Under the pieces are notes generated by a model that saw nothing but the letters and a program-made list of their open reading frames with translations, had not been told where the DNA came from and searched no databases. A stretch of 39,474 nucleotides of DNA. Origin: a virus. A program made the translations under genes and the position numbers. The stretch is from the IMG/VR virus record IMGVR_UViG_3300025131_000128, positions 1-39,474 of that record; one strand, given 5' to 3'. Of this stretch, positions 10,743-39,292 are shown piece after piece; within the stretch, counting starts at the first letter, position 1; every line of letters starts with the position of its first letter.

Positions 10743-11654
10743 TTAATCTTCACAATCCACTTTTGATTTTTGTGATGGATCAACCGAAGGAGCGTCGATT
10801 CCATCACCCTTAATTAGTTTTGAGTGTGAAATAAATTTAACTCCCAAATCGTTCTCATATATCTCATCGAACAAGACTACCACGCAGTCAGAGATAGAAT
10901 TGACAATTTTATCCTCAAGTTCTAATACTTCTAAAGTCTCTTTTAAATTGGCGGCGGGGGTCATCGGCTTTGTCTGATCGGGTAAAATAAACTTTTTTGG
11001 TTGGGAGAGCGTCTCGTAACTTGACCCCGTCATCTCGTAAACGCTTACTTCGAAATTATCCTTGAAGTTTTCCAATATTGTATTATGTTCTACAATAGAT
11101 AAAACCAGAGGATCATCATGTCTATAAGCCACATCTTGAATACCGGGACCGCTTTTATTTCTTAAATAATAATAGTCATAACTACACGTTACGTTAATCT
11201 GGGGTATTCGTTGACCAGCACCCGGCAAAGGTTGATATGAGGAAGTGGATAAAGCATACCTTTTGTTGTTCAAAACATTCAACTCTAAATAAGGAGCAAA
11301 CTGATTAATAGAATTAAAAGTGCCTAGAGGGTTGAAATAAACATTTCCGAATTCATATTGGTTCTTCTTGTCGTTCTCCAATACTTTTTTGCCAGCCTTA
11401 GTAAATTTTGTAGTCGATTGCATGGATGCCGAAACAAACCTAACATTACCCCGATTGGAAACGGTTTGTGACTTAATTCTCATTTCTGTTTCATTTTGAC
11501 CTTCTTCTCCAGAAGCATATGCGAGATCGTAAATAATATCATCATCATAAAACTCATAATAAACTGGTTGAAATGTTCCCTTAGATAGCTGAAGGCGACC
11601 TTCGGAGGTCAATTGAAAATCAATGACATCTTGCTTTTTATTAAAAAAGGTCAT
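10743..11654 (-). CDS. Phage structural protein with the LTxEGR N-terminal motif (second copy)
   Basis: 303 residues. The N-terminus MTFFNKKQDVIDFQLTSEGR, followed by LQLSKGTF and YDDDIIYD, is a clear counterpart of the N-terminus of the 333-aa protein at 3133-4134. Beyond about residue 50 the two differ. The body has aromatic-rich strands (for example SYDYYYLRN) and ends in an acidic, Asp/Ser-rich tail. There is no membrane segment and no enzymatic motif. It overlaps the 2914-aa gene by 4 nt (ATGA) and lies between two giant structural genes, so it is very likely a tail or baseplate component. Its shared N-terminus may be the part that docks to the common baseplate partner. Confidence 0.72.
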   Translation of the reverse strand: MTFFNKKQDVIDFQLTSEGRLQLSKGTFQPVYYEFYDDDIIYDLAYASGEEGQNETEMRIKSQTVSNRGNVRFVSASMQSTTKFTKAGKKVLENDKKNQYEFGNVYFNPLGTFNSINQFAPYLELNVLNNKRYALSTSSYQPLPGAGQRIPQINVTCSYDYYYLRNKSGPGIQDVAYRHDDPLVLSIVEHNTILENFKDNFEVSVYEMTGSSYETLSQPKKFILPDQTKPMTPAANLKETLEVLELEDKIVNSISDCVVVLFDEIYENDLGVKFISHSKLIKGDGIDAPSVDPSQKSKVDCED

Positions 11655-14600
11655 ACGGGCTTCACCACCTCTTTGGCAACCAACTCTACGTCATCGCCTA
11701 AAGTTATTTGTGCGTCAACCTTGGCTAATTCAATCAAAGAGAAAAAGTCATAAGGCCAATTATAACTATAAGACAACTTGAACTTACCATCCTTCTTAAT
11801 CGAGGGAATCTGTGTTAAGCCCTTCGCCTTGAAGTCAAAATTAAAACCGTCGTCGGTGGTGTCCTGAGTTATGTTCTTGTATTCGAACTCGCCACGTTGT
11901 TTTACCTTAAACACAAAAAACCGAAGCTCGGAGATTTGTATATCATCCAGCAGCTTTTGTCCATTCTTAAATAATTTAGTTTGTTGACCAAATGTTTTTG
12001 CGCCGCCTTGGAAGCCGGGGTCCACATTAACCACCTTTTCTTTAATTATTCTATCATTATTGATTAAGAGTGTGTTAATGTTGTTCTCGACAATCTTGTC
12101 CAAGGAAATATCCTCGTTTATCTCTGTGGTAAGATTAATGATAGATTCCTGCTTCCTCGCCTCCAAACCGGCTTGCGGCAACACTCCTTGCCAAATGTCG
12201 CCCAAATCTTGCTGAGATAGTTCGCGAGTAAATTCAAAAATATACATTATGGGGGTCTTAATGTCCGTGTTCTTCTTCGGACTAAACGTGACAAAATCCA
12301 GAACAGGGGGAAATACATATTCTTTCATAAGCCGTATTTGACGAACTAATTGATCCGCATCATCCTGCACGGTATTGTTGTTGGCTTTGGACCGAAGAGC
12401 CTTAACAGCCTCGTCAGACAAATTAAAGAAGTTCACCACATCACTAGTTTCTTCGTTAACCAGATACGGCACAACCACCAAGGCTTCTTTTAAGACCTTT
12501 CCTTCGGGCGATATCTTGCCAATGGCTTTTTTGGTTTGTTCCACCCCCATTACCTCTGCGAGTGAAGCAGTGAGGGCGGGATTAATCCGCTCCTTAAACG
12601 GTACATCCATAACTTCTAAAAAGATTCCCGAATTATTGTAATCGGGAATAACTCCATATTGATGCCACATTCCGCGTGATGAAGCTGTTGGCGAAGTTGC
12701 AAGAGGAACAGAGACAGCAACATCTTTAAAATCCATTACAGGGCATTCAAACTTGGGATGAATAACCCATTTTTTCTTAATGGTGTTTGTAGACTCCGCA
12801 ATTTGATCAACATTTGCGTCGGAATCCCAAGTCTTTGCCTTTTCCTCAATAATGCCCTTGATGGTCATTGATGATGACATTTGCATGAATGTTTGGTCAC
12901 CGCTACCCGTCGTGTTAAAATCGTAAGTTGGATCTTCTAATAAAATTCTTTGAGAGGCTTCATTCGCCCTGAAATAGTCAAAAGAAGCAGAGTTAAGAAT
13001 TTCCTCTACCGTATAAGACGATATCGACGCATTGGGCTTAAAAAGAACCCGTGTTCTGGCAAAGCCATCAAAATAAGGAGGAGTGTGAGTCGCATATGTT
13101 CCATAATAAACATCAATAGTGGGACCACCAAGCTTAGAAATAAATTTACTTCCAAAAGCAGACCCGCGATTATACATTTCGCAAATAGGGGTTGCCTTCG
13201 GCAAACCACCCTGAGATTCTAAGCTTTTAGAAAGAGTCTGCATCGGTGCCGCGACGCCGTCAGAATTCCGCACTAGCTTTGAATAATCATAAACGCTTTT
13301 AATATCACTATTCCTTAAAACAATATCCATAGCATAGACTTTAGCAGGATCAAGTTCAAATGAGGCTTTTGCCGAGGACTCAAACGATGTTAGAACTTCA
13401 TCTTGCAAAAAGAACTTTACCACTTCCGAATGGAAATTATTGGACATCAACGAAAAATTCAATTTTGGAGGTTTTTTGGGTATCACCATGCTGAGTAATA
13501 AACTTGGAGTTATCCCGTCATCACTCCACGTTGTTAAATAAGGTTCGGGATTTAAAATAGCATCAAACGGCAAACGGGTTGTTGTCGATGCAAGATTAGC
13601 ATCTACCGCTATACCATCAAACCCATACCAATTGAATGTCCATGCATAGCCCTTGTCACTGAGAGTTTTAGATCCGCCCTCGTAGGACTGGGGGGATGTT
13701 GCGCCATTGGCGAGGTAAACGGACAATTCATCTCCACCGGCAACGCTGGCGAGAAAGCTTCCAGACGGCACCTGTTTTGCAATCAAATCACAGGGAACCG
13801 GCATATCGTCGATGCCTGGAAAATTCTCATCATGACCTATACCCTCTACTCTTGAATAGGTTCCAATATTAAAAAGGGCTGTGAGTGGGAGAAAAGCGTC
13901 CACCGCCAGACCAGATTTTATAGTATTAAAAAGAATGCCGGGAGAAACAAAGGGTTTTAAAACTGTTCCAAATGTAGCATTTGCCTCCTCTAATGCAAAA
14001 CTATCTTTTAATGAGCTAGATAATTCTTGTGCCAATTGAACGGTTCTTTGTTGCGGATAAAACCCCTCATAGGGCAAAAGTTTTAACAAAGCAGATGCTC
14101 TAAGAGCGAAGCTGCTTATCCCTAAATTAGATTTACCCTTAACCACATCTAGAATTTCGCCCAGTTCTACCGAGGAGAGATTTTTAGCAATATTGGAATT
14201 AGATGATCCCGTCAATGAAAACAAATTTGATGTTCCGTCTGATGCTGTTAAATTTGCTTTAAAATTAAAACCATTAGATAAATAAGTGTTTATGTGATCA
14301 CTGATAATAAACTCTGGAACAATGGAATGATCTTTTCCCTGGAGCCTCAACTCTTCCGAGTAATTGTCATAAGAATTATAAAAAGGATTTTTGCCCGATT
14401 GCGAGCCAACCTCCCACACAGCTTCACCTACATTTAAAGTTCCGGTATTTGTTACACTATGAGAAAACTGGGTCCAGATCAGTCCTTTTGTATTGAATGC
14501 GTGTGACGACGTTGTTAAACTAATCGTTCTTCTGGCATACAGCGGACCATACTGAATATTGCTTGTGGGGGGAGGATAAGAATTGTTAAACCCACAATAG

Positions 14601-17600
14601 TGGTTTTGCAACTCACCCGAACCGACAGCCGGGTCGCTCGCAGACAGCGGTGGTATCACGGTTAAAGCATGAATATCCGCGTCCATTGAATAACGAGAAG
14701 TGGTGCCGTCGATGACCAACTCCATTGAATTCGCCACATTGGTTTGTTGCCTATCCACTCGCATGTCTCTCCACCAAGTGTTATCAAACACATCTCGGGT
14801 GCGCGTGTTATCAAGATAGGCTATTTCATCCTTTGGAAAAATCTGCGTTCTCATGCCAATCTTGGAAAAATTAGCATCAGGCTGCTCAAAAACTTTGTCA
14901 AATAACGTTGTGTTTTTCTTGATGGCTTGTTCAAAAATATTATTTTTTAGAATATCCGTTGGATTGGCAAATCCACGTTTCATATTTTCGTAAGAAGCCT
15001 TTAGCAACAACGAGGAACCATCCACCTTTGCATAAAATGGGATAGCCCGTGTAATGGGGGGTTCTATGACATTTTCAAAACCCTTCAAGAAAAGTGGACC
15101 GCCGCCGGGAGCAGCCCCCACTTGAGTTCCGACCACATACGAATAAGTGTTTGTTTGCCTGTGTGCTCGGGCTACGGGATGTTCACCACCTCTAATTTGT
15201 TTCCAAGATGGATAGCCATATGGACCGTTTCTGTTGAGGAGAATGGCATTTAAAACAGATGGTGTGCCGGGAAAGCTCGGGTTGAAGACCCCGTTATCAA
15301 CACCGTTCGGTGCGGCAAGCGAGGGATTAATGTAATATATTCTATCTGTGGCTCCACAACCAATGCAGAACGGGTTTCCAAACAAACCCAAGGGAAAGCC
15401 CAAATGATTTTGACTAGAAGTAACAGGGTCCACGACAACATTATTCAGTCCAACAAAATCCACTGGAAGAAACTCGACCATCGCGTCGGCGGGAGCGCTA
15501 TTTTTATCAACACCAAAATACCGGGCTTGCGTGTAGCCGTCGATCTCAAGATACCCCACAATATCGCTAGCACTAACAAACGTAATATTGCTTCCGGTCA
15601 TATTAATAACTGCACCAAAGTTCGGAGCAGAAATGTAAGAAGCATTAATCCACGCATACTGCAAATCGCTTTGTGGAATTGCGTGCTGAATAAACCAGTT
15701 GTCGTAAATCTTTCTTGTGCCGTATGTGGTGTAAGCGTTGAGCGTTCCTGCGGAATTGGAGGGGGGGTATGCTGAAACCCCTGCTGCGCCAAAACTTGTC
15801 ATCGTGCCATCGGCATATCCCAATTGGTTGGGAATGGTATAATTTTCTGCGGAGCCTTCCTTGTCGTCGCCCATTCGCCACCAGCCTACCAAGTAACCAT
15901 TGGGCGACACCGAATTTGCTTTTGCTGCCGGATGTTGTCGTAAATCAAATGGACCCTTGATCGCTGGATCGGCTGGTTCATAAATTTCCCACACTTCGTT
16001 AGCAGAAAGCTTCTTGTTCCAAATGCTCACCTCATCGATATAGCCTGCCCATGAACGCTGCGCGTCAGAGCGGTTGCCAATATTGGTTTCGCCGGAAATG
16101 GTGTAGACCGCGCCAACGGGGGTCAAGGTTGTTGTTGACGAAACCGCAATTCCATTAATATAAAAAATTGGCACGTTAGAAGCATTCGTCGCATCATAAG
16201 TGACTGCAACATGATGCCAAGAGCTTGACGCAATCCCAGAAGTGGTGATGAAGTTGCCATCAGTTACTGTCCAATCAACATCTAACCCAAGATAACCAGT
16301 TGAATGTTGTACAAAAAAACGATAACCGGTGCCGCCACCGGCATTGTCGCCAATTTCAATAATTCTCGGCCAGCCGCCTTCTCCAACGCCCGTTTTGTTA
16401 ATCCAGGCTGAAATAGTTACTTTATCAGTATTAAATACTTCATTATATGGTATAGAAACTCTATCGTTGGTGCCGTCAAAAAGAATCGAATAATTGCTAT
16501 AACTTGTTGTGCCCACAATAGAGGGCACCGTTCTCGGATTTCTATTAACCTTGTGATAGGATGCGGTAACGGAAGAACCAGATTTATAACCACCCCACGC
16601 TTGATGAGTGGTGTCCCACTCGTTCAAAAACCGTCGTACACCATAGTTTCTCCACGGCAGAGCATTATAAACCGAGTATTCTCTCGCCGAAGGATCTAAA
16701 AATCCCTGGGCGGTCTCTACGCCGCCGGGAGCATTAAATCTTTGAACAATGATGCTTTTCGTTTTATTTCTCGCCGGCCACAGATAATCAAATGTTCCCG
16801 ACACATAAGGAGAGGAAGTTTCTGTTCTGGGAAGCTGGCTAGCAATATATAGATTGTTGGCTTTTCTGCCTACCGTATTAAACACCTGATAATTGAAATC
16901 ATAGTTTCCAGCCGTCGCCGACAAGAAGTTGTAGGGTGCAACGGAGCCTATTCGATCGTCGGTGCCGGTTGTTGGAAGCTTATTTGTAATCGTAATTGGC
17001 TTTATTGTACCGCTTTTAAATGATTGTCCACCAAGCACTTGATAATTTTTTATATAATTTCCCGCCGATGCCGACGCAAAATCCCATGCTGCAACAGAGC
17101 CTATTCGATCATCGGTCGAACCGGTTGTTGGGAGTTTATTGGCAATATTTACAATAGGTCCAATAGAGCCCGTGGGATCAGATGCCTTGAATTCTAATGT
17201 AGGAAATTTATAAGCATATTTGCTTCGTTCAAGCACATGACTTTCAACAACATTTGTTTGTTGCCCCGCAAAATCTGCACTTGCCGGTATAAGGTTGTCT
17301 ATAATTGTATAAATAACCGAGTCTAGCCACTTAAAATAAGTTACAAATTTATCTAAGTCGGGATCATTGGCTACCCTATCGAAATAAAGATCCCGCAATC
17401 TTTCTAAACTCTTATAATTTTCTCGATATTTGTTGACCGGATTTCCTATCAACTCGTTAAAATCTACAAGACCAGCAAAAATATATAATATATCTTGACT
17501 AATCACATCATACATGCTTTTGGCAATAAATATCGATTCTTTACCGGGAGCCATGTTGGCTTCAAATGCAATATCACTATCTGTAGTTGCGACTACTTTA

Positions 17601-20395
17601 TTTGCCCCAAATGACTCTTCGGGCAACATAACCTTCGCTTTTGAAACAAACTCATTTTCATAAACTTTAATACCAGAAGCGAATCCATATCCCATACCAG
17701 CATAATTTTTTCCAAGGGCTGCTCCATAGTCGCCATAATCACTACTTAAATCCATTGCACCCGAAATAACATCACTTACCTCAAAAGTGCTTCCCGTGGT
17801 TGGACTAGTTACTTGCTCAAAATCCCATTCGAACAAGGTGCTTAAAAATTTAGGCACATAGTTTGTGTCATCGCGATTCGAACGATTGAAATTCTCAAAA
17901 GGTCTGTTGCGACCCTGCGTGTTTTTAAATCTAGCATGAAGCTCAACCTCCTCTGCTGCAAGGGAGTCTGCATAATATTTAAAATTACCAATACGACAAT
18001 CTGTATTATAAAGAACACTGCCTGTAAAATTCGTCCGTTCCGAACCCACAAACGACCGCTTATCTTCTGCTAATATGAGCGTAGCGGTTGCCGCCGCGAT
18101 GGACGATGAAATTGCAAAAGAATTTACTTTAAACCCAGAATCGATTTCATAGCCATAAAGCTTTGCATAATAATCTGAGGTAGTGGCGTCTTGAAGATTG
18201 GACAAATCCTTTTGTGGTTCAAAAACAAGAGCCAGCATCCAATTTCGTGCATCATAAAGCTCGAATAAATCACTAGATATGGCTTGAAAATATCCATTTG
18301 AAGATGACAAAGTAAATCTAGCCTGTTTGCTTGTTGCGCCGTTTCGGACGGCGTAGACAGCCATACCGGTATAATTATCACTTGTAAAAGTCGTATCTGT
18401 TGGTGTGCTGCTGTCCGCTGAATGGACTCCAAAAATAGAAGAGGACATTACATGAGGAACATAAAACTCATTGGCAAAATCAATATGTTTTGTAAAATAA
18501 ACATTGCTTTCTAGGGTGAACGATTCTCCCAAAGATGGAATGTAAGAGCGATAATTTGTATCAGTTGATGAAGTAAAGTTAAAAATGATCGCCTGATTTG
18601 GAAGAGCCTTACTGTCTACAAGATTCTTCAGTCCATAAAAATCAATCGTCTTGTCTTTAAATTGTTCTACTTTTTCATTATTTTCGATTGTAGCTACAGT
18701 GTTGTAAGAATATGTTCTCAGCCTAATAAGGTTTTCATCTACCCCATAACAATGCAACAAATTGCGAATTGAAGAATCTGTTCCCTTTGTCTTATAAATG
18801 TAAAGTAGATTATTGTAAACATTTCGATAAAGTTTTTGTTTAACGGTCTCAATAGAGCCGCTTGAAAGTAAACGAATGTCGTTTCTATCGAACAAATTTT
18901 CTGAAACAGTATTCTCTTCAAAAAGTTGTTCTGCATTAAATCCGTGGGACTCCAAAAGCTTATCGTAATAAGGAAATATTTTGTAATAACTGTTATAATC
19001 CCCATCCTTTACTTTGTTGTAGGTTTTTATTTGAGAAAACAATTCATCAAAATAAGCTCCAATAATATGAGAAAGCTTCTTTAATTCTCCCTTGTCCTCC
19101 GAGCGAACCCACTCTGGCATAAGTGCATAAAAACTAAACGGATTTCCGTTATCATAAACCTCACCTATGCGAACAGTGTCGGTTACCAAAGCAGCCACTC
19201 TTGAATTGTTTGAATAAATTATCGGATCTTTTTCTTCGATAAAACTTATACCATCAGAAGTTGTATACTCTTCAATCGCCGAACCCGTAGAACGACTTGT
19301 AGATTCATAACTAAGAAACGAAGCGCTTGCGAGCCTGCCAGAGTAATCCAAAATTACAGAATCCGTTGTTGCTGTCGTTGTAATTCCCTCATTAAATTTA
19401 AAATATAAAGAAAGAGGATGAAATGGAGCGTCACCAGAAGTGTCATTTGATCCTCCATGAACCGAGGAGTTCCAATTTAAGCCAATCTCTTTTGCATTGC
19501 GTGCCGACTTCCAATAGCGGAACTCATCAATAGAACCGCTATAATAATACTCGGAGCCAAGAGAAAGAAAACGCCCAATATTTCCAGACACTGTCGCAAG
19601 CGCCTCAGACATAGTATAAGTGCTTTCTATTTTCTTTTGCGTATACGCCCCATCAACATATAAAGTTCCCGTTAAATAAGAACCAGAGCCGAGCGATTCA
19701 AAAACAAGTGCATAGTGATGCCAAGACCCCGCCTTAGTAGCGAGTGTATCAAAGCTAAAGCTGGCTTCGAGGTCAGTGCGGAGAGATCCAACCTGCCACG
19801 TTATATCAGAACCACTCACATAGTGATAAACAAGAAAACTTCCAGTACCAGAATCCGATAATTGTAGAAGACCTCGCGATTCTGCGGTGCTGGCTGTTGC
19901 TATATTCGCCCAAAACTCAACCGTAACGCCTCGTTCTGAATCGAACGCCAGATTGTTTGTTTGTCTGGAAGATTCCTTATAAACATTATCTAAATTCGGT
20001 CCTGCCTTTGCTTCAATTCTTTGAGTTCTTTCTGTCCCCTCGTTTAAAGTCACATAACCCGTGGTTTTGGGATAGAGTTCTTTCCATATAAAATAATCAA
20101 AAGTATTGCTATTGTTGTGAAACTTTAATTTTTCAGCCGCAGTGCCGTCGTAAGGATAATCGTTGTAAATTCTAGAAATGCCATTTTCATAATATTGTTC
20201 AGCTAAACCATAATTAATGTAACTAGACAGACTCGCCGAGATGTCTACAAATCCGAAAATTTTCTTTCGAAAATCTGATTTTTGTTTTAAAAAATCAAAA
20301 GATTCAACAAAAAGACTAGAGCTTATATCTACTGGTCTTTTTGAAAACCTAGTGACATTTTGGTCATCTTTCTTAAAATATTTTTTAAGGCTCAT
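11651..20395 (-). CDS. Giant baseplate wedge protein: gpI/gp7-type domain plus three LamG-like modules
   Basis: 2914 residues. LamG/concanavalin-like modules are visible at about 153-308 (VTVEFWANI, then WHHYALVFE, YVDG and IDEFRYW) and 1295-1475 (VTISAWINK, WHHVAVTYD, FYINGIA, IDEVSIWNK). A more divergent one lies at about 620-820 (FTLESNVYF to CRIGNFKYY). Residues about 420-560 resemble P2 gpI/T4 gp7-type wedge proteins: LMPEWVR, an ig-x-FD-like helix, and IYKTKGTDSSIRNLL. The KGT motif is the hallmark of tail protein I. A 51-residue tandem repeat follows near 1080-1175. The gene lies one step after gp25 and gp6, where a gp7/gpI partner is expected. T4 gp7 has about 1030 residues, so this version is roughly three times as long. 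The LamG modules suggest glycan binding. It probably forms the wedge periphery and touches the receptor; only the LamG folds are firm. Confidence 0.72.
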   Translation of the reverse strand: MSLKKYFKKDDQNVTRFSKRPVDISSSLFVESFDFLKQKSDFRKKIFGFVDISASLSSYINYGLAEQYYENGISRIYNDYPYDGTAAEKLKFHNNSNTFDYFIWKELYPKTTGYVTLNEGTERTQRIEAKAGPNLDNVYKESSRQTNNLAFDSERGVTVEFWANIATASTAESRGLLQLSDSGTGSFLVYHYVSGSDITWQVGSLRTDLEASFSFDTLATKAGSWHHYALVFESLGSGSYLTGTLYVDGAYTQKKIESTYTMSEALATVSGNIGRFLSLGSEYYYSGSIDEFRYWKSARNAKEIGLNWNSSVHGGSNDTSGDAPFHPLSLYFKFNEGITTTATTDSVILDYSGRLASASFLSYESTSRSTGSAIEEYTTSDGISFIEEKDPIIYSNNSRVAALVTDTVRIGEVYDNGNPFSFYALMPEWVRSEDKGELKKLSHIIGAYFDELFSQIKTYNKVKDGDYNSYYKIFPYYDKLLESHGFNAEQLFEENTVSENLFDRNDIRLLSSGSIETVKQKLYRNVYNNLLYIYKTKGTDSSIRNLLHCYGVDENLIRLRTYSYNTVATIENNEKVEQFKDKTIDFYGLKNLVDSKALPNQAIIFNFTSSTDTNYRSYIPSLGESFTLESNVYFTKHIDFANEFYVPHVMSSSIFGVHSADSSTPTDTTFTSDNYTGMAVYAVRNGATSKQARFTLSSSNGYFQAISSDLFELYDARNWMLALVFEPQKDLSNLQDATTSDYYAKLYGYEIDSGFKVNSFAISSSIAAATATLILAEDKRSFVGSERTNFTGSVLYNTDCRIGNFKYYADSLAAEEVELHARFKNTQGRNRPFENFNRSNRDDTNYVPKFLSTLFEWDFEQVTSPTTGSTFEVSDVISGAMDLSSDYGDYGAALGKNYAGMGYGFASGIKVYENEFVSKAKVMLPEESFGANKVVATTDSDIAFEANMAPGKESIFIAKSMYDVISQDILYIFAGLVDFNELIGNPVNKYRENYKSLERLRDLYFDRVANDPDLDKFVTYFKWLDSVIYTIIDNLIPASADFAGQQTNVVESHVLERSKYAYKFPTLEFKASDPTGSIGPIVNIANKLPTTGSTDDRIGSVAAWDFASASAGNYIKNYQVLGGQSFKSGTIKPITITNKLPTTGTDDRIGSVAPYNFLSATAGNYDFNYQVFNTVGRKANNLYIASQLPRTETSSPYVSGTFDYLWPARNKTKSIIVQRFNAPGGVETAQGFLDPSAREYSVYNALPWRNYGVRRFLNEWDTTHQAWGGYKSGSSVTASYHKVNRNPRTVPSIVGTTSYSNYSILFDGTNDRVSIPYNEVFNTDKVTISAWINKTGVGEGGWPRIIEIGDNAGGGTGYRFFVQHSTGYLGLDVDWTVTDGNFITTSGIASSSWHHVAVTYDATNASNVPIFYINGIAVSSTTTLTPVGAVYTISGETNIGNRSDAQRSWAGYIDEVSIWNKKLSANEVWEIYEPADPAIKGPFDLRQHPAAKANSVSPNGYLVGWWRMGDDKEGSAENYTIPNQLGYADGTMTSFGAAGVSAYPPSNSAGTLNAYTTYGTRKIYDNWFIQHAIPQSDLQYAWINASYISAPNFGAVINMTGSNITFVSASDIVGYLEIDGYTQARYFGVDKNSAPADAMVEFLPVDFVGLNNVVVDPVTSSQNHLGFPLGLFGNPFCIGCGATDRIYYINPSLAAPNGVDNGVFNPSFPGTPSVLNAILLNRNGPYGYPSWKQIRGGEHPVARAHRQTNTYSYVVGTQVGAAPGGGPLFLKGFENVIEPPITRAIPFYAKVDGSSLLLKASYENMKRGFANPTDILKNNIFEQAIKKNTTLFDKVFEQPDANFSKIGMRTQIFPKDEIAYLDNTRTRDVFDNTWWRDMRVDRQQTNVANSMELVIDGTTSRYSMDADIHALTVIPPLSASDPAVGSGELQNHYCGFNNSYPPPTSNIQYGPLYARRTISLTTSSHAFNTKGLIWTQFSHSVTNTGTLNVGEAVWEVGSQSGKNPFYNSYDNYSEELRLQGKDHSIVPEFIISDHINTYLSNGFNFKANLTASDGTSNLFSLTGSSNSNIAKNLSSVELGEILDVVKGKSNLGISSFALRASALLKLLPYEGFYPQQRTVQLAQELSSSLKDSFALEEANATFGTVLKPFVSPGILFNTIKSGLAVDAFLPLTALFNIGTYSRVEGIGHDENFPGIDDMPVPCDLIAKQVPSGSFLASVAGGDELSVYLANGATSPQSYEGGSKTLSDKGYAWTFNWYGFDGIAVDANLASTTTRLPFDAILNPEPYLTTWSDDGITPSLLLSMVIPKKPPKLNFSLMSNNFHSEVVKFFLQDEVLTSFESSAKASFELDPAKVYAMDIVLRNSDIKSVYDYSKLVRNSDGVAAPMQTLSKSLESQGGLPKATPICEMYNRGSAFGSKFISKLGGPTIDVYYGTYATHTPPYFDGFARTRVLFKPNASISSYTVEEILNSASFDYFRANEASQRILLEDPTYDFNTTGSGDQTFMQMSSSMTIKGIIEEKAKTWDSDANVDQIAESTNTIKKKWVIHPKFECPVMDFKDVAVSVPLATSPTASSRGMWHQYGVIPDYNNSGIFLEVMDVPFKERINPALTASLAEVMGVEQTKKAIGKISPEGKVLKEALVVVPYLVNEETSDVVNFFNLSDEAVKALRSKANNNTVQDDADQLVRQIRLMKEYVFPPVLDFVTFSPKKNTDIKTPIMYIFEFTRELSQQDLGDIWQGVLPQAGLEARKQESIINLTTEINEDISLDKIVENNINTLLINNDRIIKEKVVNVDPGFQGGAKTFGQQTKLFKNGQKLLDDIQISELRFFVFKVKQRGEFEYKNITQDTTDDGFNFDFKAKGLTQIPSIKKDGKFKLSYSYNWPYDFFSLIELAKVDAQITLGDDVELVAKEVVKPV
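16868..17170 (-). repeat. 153-nt (51-codon) tandem repeat within the 2914-aa gene
   Basis: Two adjacent in-frame units share the sequence NKLPTTG, DDRIGSVA, SA-x-AGNY and NYQV. At the DNA level the anchor GAGCCTATTCGATC occurs at 16944 and again at 17097, exactly 153 nt apart. A third, decayed unit (ASQLPRTE) follows on the coding strand. Synonymous differences show that the copies are old and maintained as protein. Confidence 0.85.
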
Positions 20396-21885
20396 TAGTA
20401 TTTAACCCGAAACAAAAATTTCTCGCTCTGTTCAGCATATTTTCCGTTTTCATAAAAGATAAATGAAAGTTCATACTGATAATCGGATTCAAGATTGTCT
20501 GTTTCGAAATCAAAATAATTCCCATTTGAATCATAAGACAATTTTGTAGAGCCATCATCTCCGCTGCCAGTGCCATAGGCGACCACTATTAAATCATCCA
20601 CCGTTCTCCGAATTTGATAAAAAGCCTGCCTAACCGTTTTGGTTGATATAGTTTTGCTCGCAGTTGTATATATTGTTGGCGACCAATCTTTATCTCTAAC
20701 AAACAGCCTAAACCTCGCCGTTTCGTTTCCATAAGCGGCTCTCAAGTTTGTAACATTAATAACGTGTTGGGGATTGGGATTATAACTTGACTTTGATGCG
20801 CTTAAAGAGCTAACAGTTATAGCCGAGCCAGTAAAATATTCCACTGAGCCACTATGCCACACCGGATAAATATCGGTAATTGAAGAACTGACGAATGCCA
20901 ACGAAGCAGAATAAATTCCAGTAGTACCTACATAACCACCCGTCACATTGGTGTCTCCAACGCTAGCGACATCGCCACCGATTGGCAAAAACAACTTACT
21001 TCCCGATGGAGCAGTGTTGGCAGCGGAACCAGAATAAAGACTAACTAAAATGGGGCTGGTGCCAACATTGGGAAGATTCGCCAATTGACCGCGAACATAA
21101 TTATAAAAGTAAATTGTATTTAAATTATCTGCCGCAGACGCCCGAGAACTACTAACATAAAAATTAGCGCTATCATCTTTTATAGAATTATCCCAACGAA
21201 CTTCTAGACGTGGTTTCTTGAAATAATATTCTGTATCTCTGCCGAAGAACTTCTTAGTATAATATGAAGAAGAGGGGATTGTATTAGTTGCGCCGCTTTC
21301 TTGTGAGGAGGTTAGTTTAATTAAAAAACCATAATTCGATTTAGTACCTGCCAGCCACTGTTCAACTATGTCCGAAACATCAACTTCTAAATTTTCTGTT
21401 CCCGCGCCGAAGGTTTGAGTATACTCTGGCGATGTATGATAATCGGCTCCCTGTGCTGTCCACGCGGTATAAGTTGAGCCGTCAAACGACGCTGTTTTCC
21501 AATTGGAAACTCCTAAATCAAGATATTCATCCATATCCAAACCAATTCCCTCATCCCACGAACGAGAAAGAGCATTGATAGTTAGGGTAAAATTGGTCGC
21601 TTGTGTTGCCGACTGTGGGGAATTATATATCTGTAAATAAAACTTTGAACTCCCCGAAGCCGGAATTGTGCCCGCAGAGCGAGAGGCGGCAATTTGAGTA
21701 GTATCAAACTGCAAAAGAACTCTGGATTTTTCCAACGATGCGCTGGTAAAAGCCCCGTAAAGAGAATACACTTCCAAAATATCAGACATACCCATATTGG
21801 CGTCGGTGGCGCGAGTTGAACGCACACTGCCATAGCCATCCGTAATGGTGTTATCTTGTGTGGCATAAAATCGATATATAGCCAT
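20395..21885 (-). CDS. Baseplate-proximal structural protein with DNRLRE/CBM96-like N-terminal domain
   Basis: 496 residues. The N-terminal half fits the DNRLRE-type beta-sandwich, related to carbohydrate-binding module 96. It starts MAIYRFYATQDNTITDG, then has SRVLLQFDTTQIA, and ends with VDVSDIVEQWLAGTKSNYGF. This strand order (shared LLxFD, then DVxxxVxxWL and NYGxL) is typical of the family. The C-terminal half is Ser/Thr/Gly-rich beta structure with LYSGS, HSGS and FTGS turns. It sits between gp6 and the giant gp7-like gene, with TAATG junctions on both sides, so it is probably translated with them and part of the wedge or an attached adhesin. The related modules bind polysaccharides, which suggests a surface-contact role; this is inference. 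Confidence 0.7.
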   Translation of the reverse strand: MAIYRFYATQDNTITDGYGSVRSTRATDANMGMSDILEVYSLYGAFTSASLEKSRVLLQFDTTQIAASRSAGTIPASGSSKFYLQIYNSPQSATQATNFTLTINALSRSWDEGIGLDMDEYLDLGVSNWKTASFDGSTYTAWTAQGADYHTSPEYTQTFGAGTENLEVDVSDIVEQWLAGTKSNYGFLIKLTSSQESGATNTIPSSSYYTKKFFGRDTEYYFKKPRLEVRWDNSIKDDSANFYVSSSRASAADNLNTIYFYNYVRGQLANLPNVGTSPILVSLYSGSAANTAPSGSKLFLPIGGDVASVGDTNVTGGYVGTTGIYSASLAFVSSSITDIYPVWHSGSVEYFTGSAITVSSLSASKSSYNPNPQHVINVTNLRAAYGNETARFRLFVRDKDWSPTIYTTASKTISTKTVRQAFYQIRRTVDDLIVVAYGTGSGDDGSTKLSYDSNGNYFDFETDNLESDYQYELSFIFYENGKYAEQSEKFLFRVKY

Positions 21886-23687
21886 TAAACCGTCTCTCCA
21901 GCTATTGTTTCGTCATACCTTTTAATCTCAAAAACGTAATCGTCAGGTATCTTGATGTATCTTCCATCCGTAGTGGTGTTGGCAATAAAATTATAATCTA
22001 CGCTGGAGTAATTAACTCCGTTTTTAACTGTGAATGTCAGTTTCAATACATCATCAACCTGTTCTAAATCATTTATTCTTTTGGAAATTTCAGAAATATT
22101 AATACTTTCTCCAAAATTGTATTTTCTTCTGTTAAAATAATCGCGCAATGCCCCGTTAGCCGCGATAGTGGCGTCGATAGCATCGAAGGCGATATTGGAT
22201 AAAGCCGTAAATTTTATTTGAAAACTAATAATCTTGCCATCTAAAATATCAATAGAATCCGAAACAGACTTATATTGTTGTATCCATGTTTTTAAATTAT
22301 CCTTGATTGCTTGAGATGTATTAGCCAAATTGCCATTATTATCTTCTCCTAATACATAAAGGTTCATTGATCTACGCGGAGAAAAAAGGTCTCTTACCAC
22401 TTTTACACGCTTTACAACTCCAAACTGTGGTGGCATTCTATATGAAGCTGCCTCATAATCAGACATTGTTACAGCGCGATTCTGAGAAGAATATATTCCA
22501 GATGCTAACATGCGCATTTCATCATTAGTTAACTCGGAAAGGGTAGAATTGATAGGGTCATCATTTTCAACCTCTATAGAACCAGCAACGCGATTTTTAA
22601 CAATAGTATCAGTGGCATCAAGCCCAAAAGTAAAATCAAAATTAGATACCTGATTAATTTGATTTCTACCAGCAGAAATTAAATCACTAGTGTTTAGTCG
22701 ATAAACTATTGTTAATTGAGTATTTGAAGGACCAATTCCAAACTGATCGTTTGTATCAATTATGGTAGGGTCCAAAACAGTGGAAGAGATATAATCCTTT
22801 GCAAACTTTTGAAGAACCACCTTTGAAGGATCATTAATGCTCGCTAGCAACGAATTTGCGTCTTCTTTTCCATTACCAAAAATAAGTTTAGTTTTTCCAT
22901 CTCTAAAATCCACCTTAAACCGACGTGCGGCAACATAGGGAGTGAGAACCTTAAGGGACTTCGAAGACGTTTGCCCCTCATTGAGCAATCCCTTAAATAC
23001 TAAATTTTGAGTCAATGAATCCACTTGATAGTATGTATTTCCTTCAAGATCCTCAACCGAAATAATTTCTACAATATTATCATCTTCTAATTCTATTTCC
23101 AGAAATCCCGAATCAGATGACCGATCAAGAACATCCTTGCGGATTACAGCTTGTATTCCAGAAATCACTTTTGTTTTTTGTCGAGCCGCATAATATTCTG
23201 GAACACCAGTGGTCTCATTAATTGTAGTGACAATATATTCGGTTTTATCATCGGAAAAATCAACATCTTCAACCAAAGTGTAGACCGCTCCGTCTACAGA
23301 AGAAAATGTTGCGCCCTTTTTTAACACTGGTGCATAATCTGTCGCCGGTCCTACATTGCCCACGGTGCCAGGAACCTCAACATATACTGTAACAAACCCC
23401 GAAGCCGAAGGTGAAGCCGGGTCTTTCCAACCCATTTGACGAGCTACTTTAAAAATATTATCCCGGTTTATAGCCGTTTCCAGCATATTTTCGTTTACTT
23501 GATAATCCAATTGAAAAGACAAAGTGTCGCCAACATATGATATCGCGTCTAAAAGAAAAGAACCAAAAGAAGCTTCTGTAAAATCAGTATATTCATTGGG
23601 ATAAAATCGCTTTGCATATTCGACCAAAGTTGCCTTAATCGATTCAAAATCGCGAGAGTAATAATTAATTTGTGGTTTATTTGCCAT
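21885..23687 (-). CDS. 6: Baseplate wedge subunit gp6 (gpJ family)
   Basis: 600 residues; T4 gp6 has 660. The N-terminus (INYYSRDFESIKATLVEYAK, then FTEASFGSFLLDAISYVGD) is characteristic of gp6: a RDF motif, then the xGxxLLDxxSYVxD helix. The C-terminal half contains MTMSDYEAASYRMP-type and VKRVKVVRD-type segments (here RAVTMSDYEAASYR), which place the protein in the P2 gpJ/T4 gp6 superfamily. gp6 dimers form the ring of the baseplate wedge that opens when the tail sheath contracts. The gene follows gp25 at a TAATG junction, the conserved order in contractile-tail and injection systems. No defects are visible. Confidence 0.92.
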   Translation of the reverse strand: MANKPQINYYSRDFESIKATLVEYAKRFYPNEYTDFTEASFGSFLLDAISYVGDTLSFQLDYQVNENMLETAINRDNIFKVARQMGWKDPASPSASGFVTVYVEVPGTVGNVGPATDYAPVLKKGATFSSVDGAVYTLVEDVDFSDDKTEYIVTTINETTGVPEYYAARQKTKVISGIQAVIRKDVLDRSSDSGFLEIELEDDNIVEIISVEDLEGNTYYQVDSLTQNLVFKGLLNEGQTSSKSLKVLTPYVAARRFKVDFRDGKTKLIFGNGKEDANSLLASINDPSKVVLQKFAKDYISSTVLDPTIIDTNDQFGIGPSNTQLTIVYRLNTSDLISAGRNQINQVSNFDFTFGLDATDTIVKNRVAGSIEVENDDPINSTLSELTNDEMRMLASGIYSSQNRAVTMSDYEAASYRMPPQFGVVKRVKVVRDLFSPRRSMNLYVLGEDNNGNLANTSQAIKDNLKTWIQQYKSVSDSIDILDGKIISFQIKFTALSNIAFDAIDATIAANGALRDYFNRRKYNFGESINISEISKRINDLEQVDDVLKLTFTVKNGVNYSSVDYNFIANTTTDGRYIKIPDDYVFEIKRYDETIAGETV

Positions 23688-24064
23688 TATGCTGCTACCT
23701 CAAAAATATCTTCAATTGATGTGTTGGTTATTGGAATAGTGTAATTAAGAAGAACTGCAAGATACTGCCCCTCTGGATCAAATTTTGTTTTAATTTCATT
23801 TATTTTTACATACGAAGCATAAGTGCCAAGCTGTGTCCGAATATCGTCTTCTACTCTAAATCCCATATCCGAGTTTGGCTGTTCAAACAAATATTTTTTT
23901 AGCCCACATCCAAAATTAATATCAGAAAGCTTTTCACCTTTTTCAGTTAAAATAATCATCTTCACATTCTGCTTGGCATTTTCATTAAATGTTTTTGTTA
24001 ATACATAAGGACCGTCTATCGAGTTGACAGACAATGGAACTTTTATATTAAAACCTTTAGCCAT
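23687..24064 (-). CDS. 25: Baseplate wedge subunit gp25 (gpW/gp25 family)
   Basis: 125 residues, close to T4 gp25 (132 aa). The family signatures are a small N-terminal strand, KMIILTEKGEKLSDINFGCG with LKKYLFEQPN, and the helix RVEDDIRTQL before YVKINEI. gp25 sits at the core of the wedge, nucleates sheath assembly and binds gp6. It is the equivalent of P2 gpW and TssE of type VI secretion. The start ATG overlaps the stop of the 27-aa mini-ORF (TAATG), and its upstream sequence is a near copy of the end of the 646-aa gene. There is only a weak purine-rich site (AGCGGA) before the start, so translation probably depends on coupling. Confidence 0.92.
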   Translation of the reverse strand: MAKGFNIKVPLSVNSIDGPYVLTKTFNENAKQNVKMIILTEKGEKLSDINFGCGLKKYLFEQPNSDMGFRVEDDIRTQLGTYASYVKINEIKTKFDPEGQYLAVLLNYTIPITNTSIEDIFEVAA

Positions 24065-36673: not shown

Positions 36674-37015
36674 TTAATCTCCTTTTAATATCCTATAACT
36701 GTCTTCGTCAAAATGTTGAGTAGAGAACTCAAATAGTTCTGTGTCTTCCAGGGCAACCATTTGATGTCGCAAGCCTCGGCGAACGTGAAAGTTGTCGCCC
36801 TTGGTGAGAATAACCTCATTTGAAAGATTAAGATTATCCTCATCGGAAAATTTTACTAAAAGCCTGCCCGATTGAACATAGAAAACTTCGTCCTTTAATT
36901 TGTGATAGTGCCACGAACACCTCTTCCCCTTTACAAAATAAAGAAGCTTCCCACAGTATTCCTCGCAATTAACGATCCACTTTTCAAAGCCCCAGCCTTT
37001 AGAAACAAATTTCAT
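36674..37015 (-). CDS. Small cupin, possible sugar-phosphate or nucleotide-sugar isomerase/epimerase
   Basis: 113 residues, a single cupin barrel. Motif 1 is H36-x-H38-x4-E43 (SWHYHKLKDEVFYVQSG). Motif 2 includes HVRRGLRHQM and the strand FEFSTQHFDE. These metal-binding residues are intact. Small cupins of this type occur in sugar clusters as phosphomannose-isomerase-type or ketoisomerase-type enzymes, but the family is broad and the substrate cannot be read. The gene overlaps the adenylyltransferase by 4 nt (ATGA), so it probably works in the same pathway, perhaps on the heptose or on a 4-keto sugar made upstream. Confidence 0.75.
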   Translation of the reverse strand: MKFVSKGWGFEKWIVNCEEYCGKLLYFVKGKRCSWHYHKLKDEVFYVQSGRLLVKFSDEDNLNLSNEVILTKGDNFHVRRGLRHQMVALEDTELFEFSTQHFDEDSYRILKGD

Positions 37016-37401
37016 AATATGACCTCTTGAAGAATTTTTGTTGTTGAATAACCTTCTAAATAATTAAAAATTTCTACTGAGGTAAGATCCGAACCAACAA
37101 CTTCCTCTTTTTTATAATCACCACCCTTTACGATCACATCGGGATGTAATCTCTTTATTAAATTATAGGGGGTGTCCTCTTCAAAAACAAAAACTTGGTC
37201 TACACATCTCAAAGCCTTCAATAGCTCCTTTCGATCCTCTTGTTTATTAATGGGACGATTTTGTCCCTTCAACCTTTTAACGCTTTTATCACTATTAATC
37301 CCCACTACTACCACATCTCCCAAGCTTTTACAAAATCGTAAAAGCTCAAGATGTCCCCTGTGTAAAACATCAAAGCAACCATTAGTAAAAACTTTTTTCA
37401 T
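37012..37401 (-). CDS. HldE-type nucleotidyltransferase (D-beta-D-heptose 1-phosphate adenylyltransferase-like)
   Basis: 129 residues from the ATG at 37401, which overlaps the kinase stop by 4 nt (ATGA) and has a GAGGGGAG site upstream. The signature motifs are intact: TNGCFDVLHRGHLELLRF with HxGH, NSDKSVKRLKGQNRPIN, FEEDTPYNLI, HPDVIVKGGDYKKEE and the final STTKIL. These follow the C-terminal domain of E. coli HldE (RfaE), which attaches AMP to D-glycero-beta-D-manno-heptose 1-phosphate in the pathway to the LPS core sugar ADP-heptose. Related enzymes use CTP with glycerol-3-phosphate, but the NRPIN, KGGDYKKEE and STTKI segments favour the heptose branch. Together with the kinase it equals a split HldE. 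Confidence 0.82.
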   Translation of the reverse strand: MKKVFTNGCFDVLHRGHLELLRFCKSLGDVVVVGINSDKSVKRLKGQNRPINKQEDRKELLKALRCVDQVFVFEEDTPYNLIKRLHPDVIVKGGDYKKEEVVGSDLTSVEIFNYLEGYSTTKILQEVIL

Positions 37402-38129
37402 ATTACACTTACTCCCCTCTTCTGTACAACAGTTGTGGCGCAATCATTGGCAAATTTTATTGACTCTTCTATATCGTTTGTTAGCAAAAATTTGTAACAT
37501 AATCCAGAAAGAAACGTATCGCCAGCACCCGAAACGTCTTTAACCTCTACCTCTTTTACTGAGTAGGTGACTCCACAATGCAAACACCCCTTTGGACCCA
37601 TCGTAACAATAAGTTTGTTTTTGATAGCTTCTGAAAGTGTGTGTCGGGTTGCCTCAAATTCGCTAGAATTGATCTTAATAAATTTTGCCTGCGTACACCA
37701 AGTGCCCAATATTTTTTTAGTATCTAAGAAAGTCGCAGGGTGCTGTTGGCAAATAAATTTAATGTCATCAGTGTTTAAAAACCCCTTATCATAATCCGAT
37801 ATAACCACACCATCATACTTTTTAAAATTGATTTTTTTCACAGCGCATCTTCCATATGAAGCGTCATTACAATCAAGTCTCATAAACATATGATTAGACT
37901 TTAAATCAATAAAGCGAGTTTTAGTAATATTTTGCCAGTTCTTGTTAGTGTGAATATTAACGTGTGCCCCAAGAGACTCTAAATTGCTCTTAACATTCAT
38001 CGCCATGCCAACGTTATTATTAGTTTTGATCAAATTAAAAACCGGGACCGGCGCTTCAGGACACAACCGGATGCTCTCTCCATAACTAAAAATATCTGAG
38101 CAGCTTTCGCCCAAAACAAGAATATTCAC
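37398..38129 (-). CDS. PfkB-family kinase, HldE kinase-domain-like (heptose 7-phosphate kinase-like), short
   Basis: 243 residues from a GTG at 38129 that overlaps the TGA of the dehydratase gene (GTGA) and follows an AAGGGG site; a start further upstream is possible but less likely. The N-terminus (LGESCSDIFSYGESIRLCPE then APVPVFN) and NVGMAMNVKSNLESLGA are the HldE kinase signature. ITKTRFIDL, MRLD and ISDYDKGFL follow, and the catalytic loop is DVSGAGDTFLSG. HldE phosphorylates heptose 7-phosphate at C1. Typical kinases of this family have about 310 residues; this one is about 70 shorter, with loss visible after LGAHVNI, where a lid/dimer segment normally sits. The catalytic Asp is kept, so activity remains plausible. 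Confidence 0.8.
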   Translation of the reverse strand: MNILVLGESCSDIFSYGESIRLCPEAPVPVFNLIKTNNNVGMAMNVKSNLESLGAHVNIHTNKNWQNITKTRFIDLKSNHMFMRLDCNDASYGRCAVKKINFKKYDGVVISDYDKGFLNTDDIKFICQQHPATFLDTKKILGTWCTQAKFIKINSSEFEATRHTLSEAIKNKLIVTMGPKGCLHCGVTYSVKEVEVKDVSGAGDTFLSGLCYKFLLTNDIEESIKFANDCATTVVQKRGVSVI

Positions 38130-39292
38130 TTTCGCCCCTTCACAACGTCGCAAATAAAATCAACATCTTCATTGTTCATTTCAGGGTAATTTGGCAAAAA
38201 GAATCCAGTTTCGTGGATTTTATCGCTCATCTCGTCTTGGAACGCTCCATATTCTTTAACCCAAAAGGGGTGGCGACCGAGGTTGCCCGCACTATAAATG
38301 CGAGTTTCAATTCCATTATTTACAAGGCGAGTAACAATTTCCTTTCGATGATCTGTGGAATTTGCCAAAGCTCCAAATGAAATGGATACCGGAACGTTTT
38401 CACCCCAATCTTGAAACTCAACATATCCCTCTAAATTTTTTGCATAACGCAAGTGGTTTTTATTCCTTCTCTCGACAACCCAATCTGCTTTTTCAATTTG
38501 CCGCAAGCCAATAAAAGCTTGCAAATCAGTAGCACGCAAATTAAAACCGGGAATGAAAAAGGTAAAAGGTTGATGAAAATCATCAACTCCATTGTCAGTC
38601 ATTAACTGGTCATAAGCTTCTTTATCTAGGTCTTTGCCCCAGCCATGTGACCGAAGCATTAACAGAAGCTCGTACAACTCTTTGTCATCGGTGTTCACCA
38701 TACCGCCCTCGATGGTCGATAGCTGGTGTCCAAAATAAAACGAGAAGGAAGACATGTCTCCAATTGTTCCGACCTTGCTACCGTCCGCATAGGCGGCACC
38801 AAGGGCAGCGCAGGCGTCCTCCAAGAGACAAAATCCATACTTCTCCTTCAACTGTAACAGTCTCTCTTTATAATGGGGAACTCCCAAAACTTGAACAAAG
38901 ATAACAGCGTCTGGTTTATCTGTCTCACAAATCTTTTCTAACTCATCTAAATCCATACCATATGTTTTCGGATCAGTGCCCACCATTATTGGCTTTAAGC
39001 CGAACTGCATAGCGGGGGCGATGGTGGTTACCCAGCCAACGGCTGGGACAGCAATTTTCTTATTTTTAATTCTTCCTGCTGCAATAGCAGCATAGATCAT
39101 CAATAGATTAGCCGAAGAGCCTGAGTTGTTAAAAACTGCGTGTTTCGTGTCAATAAATTCTGCCCACTTCTCTTCTACCCTCCAAGTAAGCTCCCCCTTC
39201 GTTAACCGAGGATAACTTTGTAGCCATTCACACAGAGCATCGATGTCTGCTTCGTTGATTGTTTCTTTGGCTAGCGGGTAAATAACGTTCAT
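38126..39292 (-). CDS. DegT-fold 3-dehydratase, ColD-like, with active-site His in place of the PLP lysine
   Basis: 388 residues, the same length as ColD. The PLP site has the family NSGSSANLLM phosphate loop, LLEDACAALGA with Asp159, and FYFGHQLSTIEGGMV. The residue six before EGG, which is Lys in the aminotransferases, is His189. This Lys-to-His change marks PLP-dependent 3-dehydratases such as ColD (GDP-4-keto-6-deoxymannose 3-dehydratase) and E1, which remove the C3 hydroxyl en route to 3,6-dideoxy sugars. Further ColD-like segments are SHGWGKDL, FFIPGFNLRATDLQAFIGL and PLA at the start. A strong AAGGAG lies 5 nt before the ATG. Substrate is uncertain: the neighbouring HldE-type genes suggest heptose chemistry, while ColD acts on a GDP-hexose. 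The product is probably a deoxy sugar nucleotide. Confidence 0.85.
   Translation of the reverse strand: MNVIYPLAKETINEADIDALCEWLQSYPRLTKGELTWRVEEKWAEFIDTKHAVFNNSGSSANLLMIYAAIAAGRIKNKKIAVPAVGWVTTIAPAMQFGLKPIMVGTDPKTYGMDLDELEKICETDKPDAVIFVQVLGVPHYKERLLQLKEKYGFCLLEDACAALGAAYADGSKVGTIGDMSSFSFYFGHQLSTIEGGMVNTDDKELYELLLMLRSHGWGKDLDKEAYDQLMTDNGVDDFHQPFTFFIPGFNLRATDLQAFIGLRQIEKADWVVERRNKNHLRYAKNLEGYVEFQDWGENVPVSISFGALANSTDHRKEIVTRLVNNGIETRIYSAGNLGRHPFWVKEYGAFQDEMSDKIHETGFFLPNYPEMNNEDVDFICDVVKGRK

Follow-up and report, generated by a model that had tools for sequence, protein, structure and literature searches.

A 2914-residue putative third baseplate wedge protein with LamG modules in an environmental virus contig

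Results

Genes surrounding the giant protein

The stretch of DNA analysed here, referred to as the window, is the IMG/VR record IMGVR_UViG_3300025131_000128. It is 39,474 bp long and classed as linear, and is therefore probably a fragment. As reported in the first-pass annotation, positions 11651–20395 contain a frame that encodes 2914 amino acids without interruptions. It lies on the minus strand of the window. The frame is a true coding sequence, because residues 1–1085 of its product are about 30% identical to those encoded by more than 20 independent environmental contigs. The neighbouring genes encode, in order, proteins of 708 (with a weak amidase match), 317, 1937, and 646 aa, gp25, gp6, a 496-aa protein, the giant protein itself, and proteins of 303, 1188, and 980 aa. 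The genes and the parts of the giant protein discussed below are:

23687–24064, minus strand: gp25 (BW1), 125 aa; PF04965 E 2.6e-9, phrog_261 E 5.7e-17
21885–23687, minus strand: gp6 (BW2), 600 aa; phrog_219 E 2.7e-20, full-length homologues in immuto, Mel-JY01, and LR756508
20395–21885, minus strand: 496-aa gene between gp6 and the putative BW3; position occupied by a homologue in 111 of 121 loci
11651–20395, minus strand: putative BW3-type (gpI/gp7-like) giant wedge protein, 2914 aa; frame, KGT-core profile, and clade alignment
20060–20308, minus strand: conserved helical N-terminal region, residues 30–112; mean identity between pairs of clade members about 47%
19268–20059, minus strand: LamG/pentraxin-fold module 1, residues 113–376; PF13385, VIA fold, and clade scan
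18671–19204, minus strand: first half of the putative BW3 core, residues 398–575; MPEWVxxED (from 425), KTKGT helix (535–539), and beta1
17930–18598, minus strand: predicted jelly-roll module in the beta1–beta2 loop, residues 600–822; AF2 model and gap distribution, LamG-like in topology only
17210–17533, minus strand: second half of the putative BW3 core, residues 955–1062; beta2, helices, PAS motif at 1037, and beta3 VVESHVLER
16502–17008, minus strand: conserved block B1, residues 1130–1298; separate downstream gene in relative L101
15716–16501, minus strand: inserted LamG, residues 1299–1560; PF13385 (1307–1468) and junction sequences
14726–15715, minus strand: conserved block B2, residues 1561–1890; end of the first gene in the three relatives with a split
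11654–14620, minus strand: conserved blocks B3 and B4, residues 1926–2914, ending YSYNWPYDFFSL; separate gene in L103, L107, and L123

The assignments of gp25 and gp6 are secured by the profile matches. The first-pass annotation placed the giant protein directly after them. Both genes indeed lie upstream, but the 496-aa gene intervenes, and this arrangement is general: among 121 related loci containing gp6 and the giant gene, the giant gene is downstream of gp6 in all, adjoins it in none, and is separated from it by a recognisable homologue of the 496-aa gene in 111. The 496-aa protein belongs to no named family and has only a weak match to TGFb_propeptide (E 0.018). Its N-terminus looks like a beta domain of the CBM96/DNRLRE type.

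A cluster of sugar-nucleotide genes occupies positions 36674–39292 on the minus strand of the window. It encodes a DegT/DnrJ/EryC1 aminotransferase (E 2.4e-67), a PfkB kinase (RfaE1-like), a cytidylyltransferase (RfaE2-like), and a cupin. A phage with a heptose- or aminosugar-type pathway beside its tail genes could modify surface or virion glycans. A second contig of 22 kb, L002 (IMGVR_UViG_3300002514_000300), encodes giant and gp6 proteins that are 100% identical to those of the window, and the same phage has therefore been assembled at least twice.

The giant protein belongs to a large environmental family

A tblastn search with the whole giant protein against 50,697 phage records gave no match. 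With gp6 as a bridge query, full-length homologues were identified in Flavobacterium phage immuto, Microcystis phage Mel-JY01, and the uncultured phage LR756508. Two or three genes downstream of gp6, each of these phages encodes a protein of 1265–1400 aa that matches residues 396–562 and 955–1059 of the giant protein. Scans of IMG/VR with single proteins recovered no more than one contig, whose copies of these proteins are identical, and alignments were needed to find further relatives. The alignment of the immuto, Mel-JY01, and LR756508 proteins led to at least 573 related stretches in IMG/VR, and a gp6 alignment used as the query added the closer clade of the window protein. The profile of the KGT core matches 129 open reading frames. 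The protein of the window, implied in the first-pass annotation to be a single exceptional one, is therefore a member of a large family.

Members of the closer clade have residues 1–1085 in common with the window protein, at about 30% identity, and their complete frames range from 1190 to 4735 aa. The number of LamG modules is not related to length, as the proteins of 4178 and 4735 aa carry one LamG each. In the short-form relative L120, the 1190-aa BW3 is followed by genes for proteins of 801 and 697 aa. The latter (L120:19658–21748) contains LDL-receptor class B/SGL propeller repeats (E 6.3e-18), and a different adhesin-like domain is thus located outside BW3 in this relative.

When genome contigs were searched for a host, the full-length matches were limited to MAG contigs that are short or could be mis-binned and to one MAG ‘chromosome’. 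The latter relative, L305 (CP070664.1, 583567–596968), is in an assembly labelled candidate division WOR-3 and is either part of a prophage-like element or a mis-assembly.

The core resembles gpI/gp7-type wedge proteins

Residues 398–575 and 955–1062 of the giant protein most likely represent the third wedge protein, BW3, of the type of P2 gpI, T4 gp7, and TssG. Profile searches of the whole giant protein against Pfam, PHROGs, and PDB detected only LamG and nothing on the core. In the related records, Tail_P2_I (PF09684) matches below the cut-off in four of 12 (E 0.0014, 0.007, 0.008, and 0.024). All of these matches are on the KGT helix of the giant protein, e.g. EERTKEVWRRILNNLPYIYKTKGTARGIRALLAAYGIPKTLLSIRE, and there are none elsewhere in those records. 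The comparison with gpI/gp7 profiles proposed in the first-pass annotation thus yielded sub-cut-off matches in relatives but no significant one for the window protein, which has no PF09684 match and is not filed as a member of that family. The NCBIfam phage tail protein domain TIGR02242 matches two of 68 members weakly.

The order of motifs within the core can be followed by eye. In P2 gpI and Mu gp48, a long helix (with HKGT in P2) is followed by a strand, a loop, a strand, a helix with KPAS or KPAH at its end, and a further strand. The counterparts in the window protein, in the same order, are YKTKGT, IRLRTYSY, LIPASADF, and VVESHVLER. The KGT motif that had been noticed between residues 420 and 560 is the KTKGT at 535–539. 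Alignments of the core by hhalign with T4 gp7 (28 sequences) and P2 gpI are at the noise level. Those with T4 gp7, P2 gpI, and the cyanophage giants described below are weak, partly misaligned, and were used only as leads to motifs. Similarity to T4 gp7 in sequence is confined to a motif pair (MPDSY... and FYSTKGIEASYKFLF). A scan with P2 gpI recovered only near-identical sequences, from which no diverse gpI profile could be built.

The fold of the core was modelled from 68 sequences for a 374-aa core of a LamG-free relative that also lacks the middle module (mean pLDDT 71.7). The ten best PDB rows of a VIA search with this model are all contractile-tail baseplate chains. The best is 8kea_c of cyanophage A-1(L), with a Z-score of 6.9 and rmsd of 4.8 over 119 residues. 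The other top chains include 9gtp_A, 9rku_Ai, 8fqc_J1, 9vzk_k, 7yfz_C, 9ndy_M, and one from phi812; apart from A-1(L), the top rows come from a Streptomyces CIS, Agrobacterium phages 7-7-1 and Milano, P1, Pam3, Bas63, and phi812. The five top PDB rows of a Foldseek search with the same model are also baseplates, with E values of 0.12 or worse. Chain 8fqc_J1 of Milano is 285 residues long, compared to 286 for Milano gp30; gp30 is BW3, the orthologue of T4 gp7 and pyocin PA0619 (PMC10811340). T4 gp7 is absent among the fold matches, which was not counted against membership. The folds of BW2 and BW3 are related, and therefore fold alone cannot separate the two; gp6 (BW2) is present separately in the window. 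Single scores are weak, and it is the uniform top rows together with the motif matches and the operon that make the gpI/gp7 type the most likely assignment of the core.

In ten related records of about 126–484 kb, the core was found once per record, and PF09684 nowhere else. These include the complete-genome records of immuto and Mel-JY01, in which no second gpI/gp7 was detected. The single-copy count rests on the records of the relatives, the window being a 39-kb fragment. The kinship to gpI/gp7 proposed in the first-pass annotation for residues 400–600 is thus supported by the fold matches, the sub-cut-off PF09684 matches, and the motif order, and no separate gp7 or gpI gene was detected in the relatives’ records. 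Neither of the two observations named there as refuting the idea was thus made.

LamG and jelly-roll modules before, within, and after the core

LamG module 1 precedes the core. PF13385 matches residues 145–304 with 56.4 bits, compared to a cut-off of 27.6, and the fold of residues 110–376 is similar to that of the SAP-like pentraxin 3flp (VIA Z-score of 20.7). Every full-length protein of the window's clade contains the module, which is split by inserts in L117.

A second LamG, at residues 1299–1560, is a clean insertion between conserved blocks. Six relatives have an empty site, at which ...NRN(T/R)... continues directly to ...YDN(W/G/Y)...H.IP...Y(A/S)WI, whereas the window protein has approximately 260 residues of LamG there. 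LamG copies beyond module 1 occur in eight of 25 proteins, at differing positions and with up to six in one protein.

The middle module, residues 600–822, is located between strand 1 (557–563) and strand 2 (953–959) of the gpI-like domain. It has no match to Pfam LamG or to PDB sequences, but hhalign relates it to the middle module of Mel-JY01 (6.9e-6). The KGT core and the second half of the core are separated by 46–81 residues in seven relatives without a middle module, about 280–445 residues in those with one, and 505–705 in three relatives with a further insert. The difference between the first two ranges identifies the middle module as an insert. In L121, the extra sequence between the core halves is a LamG (G017). 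A common origin of LamG module 1 and the middle module is not claimed, as hhalign finds no similarity between them (Prob 2.8).

The claim that LamG modules lie within the polypeptide of a wedge protein holds in that the modules are on the same chain as the gpI-like core. They had been described as several, flanking and following the KGT segment. LamG profiles match before and after that segment, but not directly after it, where the middle module lies. Two LamG modules (about 113–376 and 1299–1560) are certain, and a third jelly-roll at 600–822, predicted by the structure model, is a possible one.

The mean identity of LamG module 1 is 0.39, compared to 0.45 for the core. In close pairs of relatives, identity is lower in the jelly-roll regions than in the core, e.g. 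0.56 versus 0.77 and 0.92. This divergence fits exposure at the surface and also a relaxed constraint.

The C-terminal extension is a separate gene in some relatives

Beyond residue 1085, conserved blocks span residues 1130–1298, 1561–1890, 1926–2170, and 2274–2914, the last of which ends with YSYNWPYD(F/Y)FSL. The protein is not a fixed unit: the part after about residue 1900 is a separate gene in three relatives. In L103, L107, and L123, a second gene starts within a few bases of the first, in another reading frame, and encodes the rest of the protein. The sister pairs L104/L123 and L098/L107 differ in being fused or split, both with 100/100 support, and fusion or fission has therefore happened more than once. 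The split in relatives indicates that the window protein is a composite of BW3, at least one neighbouring baseplate protein, and jelly-roll modules.

Comparison with known baseplate proteins

The BW3 proteins P2 gpI, Mu gp48, R2 pyocin PA0619, Milano gp30, T4 gp7, and TssG of the T6SS are, like the giant protein, encoded downstream of gp25 and gp6 in the wedge operon. The resemblance extends to the succession of KGT-type helix, strand, strand, PA-motif helix, and strand, to the fold matches, and to the single copy per genome, as judged from the relatives. In contrast, members of the window's clade are 1190–4735 aa long, whereas gpI types have 176–286 aa and T4 gp7 has 1032. The putative BW3 of the window further differs from known ones in the LamGs before and after the core, the jelly-roll inside the gpI-like domain, and the long and sometimes split extension, and its locus differs in the extra gene between gp6 and BW3.

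Giant proteins in the gp7 slot are also present in T4-like cyanophages, where proteins of 3032–7351 aa are encoded directly after gp6 (L292, L293, L294, L295, L296, and L008). Examples are those of Syn1 (3274 aa), S-WAM2 (3446 aa), S-CREM1 (L296, 5422 aa), and P-TIM40 (L294, record 65082–87137, 7351 aa). The Syn1 protein resembles that of the window in the motif pair LPEFI...FYRAKGTDRSIKFIF at its N-terminus, where it has a KGT motif, and it too carries an inserted domain, YHYH. Unlike in the window protein, the core motifs of the cyanophage giants are at the extreme N-terminus, gp6 directly adjoins, and there is no significant overall similarity.

Carbohydrate-binding modules inserted in a core baseplate protein are a feature of the evolved Dit and BppU of siphophages, which differ from the giant protein in belonging to non-contractile tails and in their unrelated core proteins. 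Closer in position is Gp119 of the Bacillus myophage Vp4, named ‘baseplate wedge 3’, which has CBMs absent from its homologues and decorates host cells (PMC11406892). Similar to the putative BW3 of the window with its lectin-type modules, it is a protein of the wedge periphery with carbohydrate-binding modules. However, Gp119 is a homologue of the A511 connector gp105 and not of gp7/gp104, has 831 aa, and carries modules of the CBM16/CBM22 type, not LamG. LamG domains have been described on virion components of jumbo phages (PMC7824862), and a search of the literature recovered no description of LamG inside a wedge protein.

Discussion

The giant protein is probably the BW3 of a contractile tail that has grown to 2914 aa, with lectin-type modules added at exposed joints, for which contact with glycans is predicted. 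By analogy with T4, pyocin, and the T6SS, the wedge heterotrimer would consist of this protein and two molecules of the gp6 product. The added modules, which are the LamG before the core, the putative jelly-roll in the beta1–beta2 loop, and the LamG in the C-terminal extension, would then belong to every wedge, and six wedges would display the LamG modules around the periphery of the baseplate. There, the modules could provide additional contacts of low affinity with cell-surface glycans beside those of separate fibres and spikes. Such contacts, passed on or stabilised, may contribute to the orientation of the tail and to the trigger of contraction. BW3 is the site of attachment for receptor-binding proteins in T4, A511, pyocin, and P2 (PMC10811340), and the Mu fibre docks on a loop of gp48 formed by residues 133–155 (PMC11915804). 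Because separate fibre and spike genes are annotated downstream in immuto, the need for BW3 to bind hosts is weakened, and the LamG modules could instead be auxiliary or structural.

The LamG fold serves protein contacts as well as sugars. It is possible, if rather unlikely, that the giant protein is BW3 but that its jelly-rolls are structural spacers or docking sites for proteins, such as fibres or, in contacts that build a large double-layer baseplate, neighbouring wedges, and have no part in glycan binding. The presence of module 1 throughout the clade is what would be expected of a fixed structural part, its identity is only somewhat lower than that of the core, and the separate fibres and spikes of immuto point in the same direction. 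However, the extra LamGs have been gained or lost at several positions, the faster divergence of the jelly-rolls in close pairs is more like that of surface recognition, and the CBM-bearing protein at the wedge periphery of Vp4 does bind cells (PMC11406892). Glycan contact by an enlarged BW3 is the preferred reading. A bolder extension of it, which we consider improbable, is that the wedge core itself is the sensor: the jelly-roll inside the gpI-like domain and the mobile LamGs would couple glycan contact to splaying of the wedges and contraction of the sheath, and hosts would be tracked by the gain, loss, and movement of LamGs and not by swaps of fibre tips.

Two other readings of the protein differ widely in their prospects. 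That the giant protein is a fibre or adhesin sharing merely a KGT-like helix, with the true BW3 encoded elsewhere in the genome, is very improbable. The window is a fragment and its protein has no significant sequence match to gpI/gp7, as such a reading would allow, but a single copy of the core and no further PF09684 match were found in the complete immuto and Mel-JY01 records and the long contigs, wedge proteins lead the fold matches, and the gene is downstream of gp6 in every scored locus. There is an even chance that the protein is a fusion of BW3 (about residues 1–1890) with a periphery or connector protein (about 1920–2914) equivalent to gp8/gp10 or A511 gp105, with the LamGs acquired secondarily. 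The separate adjacent gene for B3/B4 in L103, L107, and L123 and the well-supported sister pairs speak for it, whereas fission would also fit these pairs, and whole-protein profile searches found only LamG and no family match for B3/B4. A fusion is compatible with the assignment as BW3 and does not exclude it.

Several elements of this system are already known: BW3 itself, LamG on virion parts of jumbo phages, baseplate proteins with CBMs, and the cyanophage giants after gp6. What appears to be new is a BW3 decorated with lectin modules, a module inside the gpI-like domain, mobile LamGs, and the fusion or fission of the extension.

The wedge proteins of contractile tails are usually viewed as a fixed chassis that carries exchangeable fibres. 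A fibre-bearing wedge protein that has an approximately four-fold range of lengths, carries LamGs at several joints, and is sometimes encoded by two genes implies that the chassis itself is evolvable. The family provides annotators with a name for many ‘uncharacterized’ proteins of 1000–5000 aa. It also reveals the sites at which such a wedge protein can accommodate extra domains, a point relevant to the origin of target recognition in contractile injection systems. With lectin-like modules in its baseplate, the injection machine may itself be able to make contact with the cell surface.
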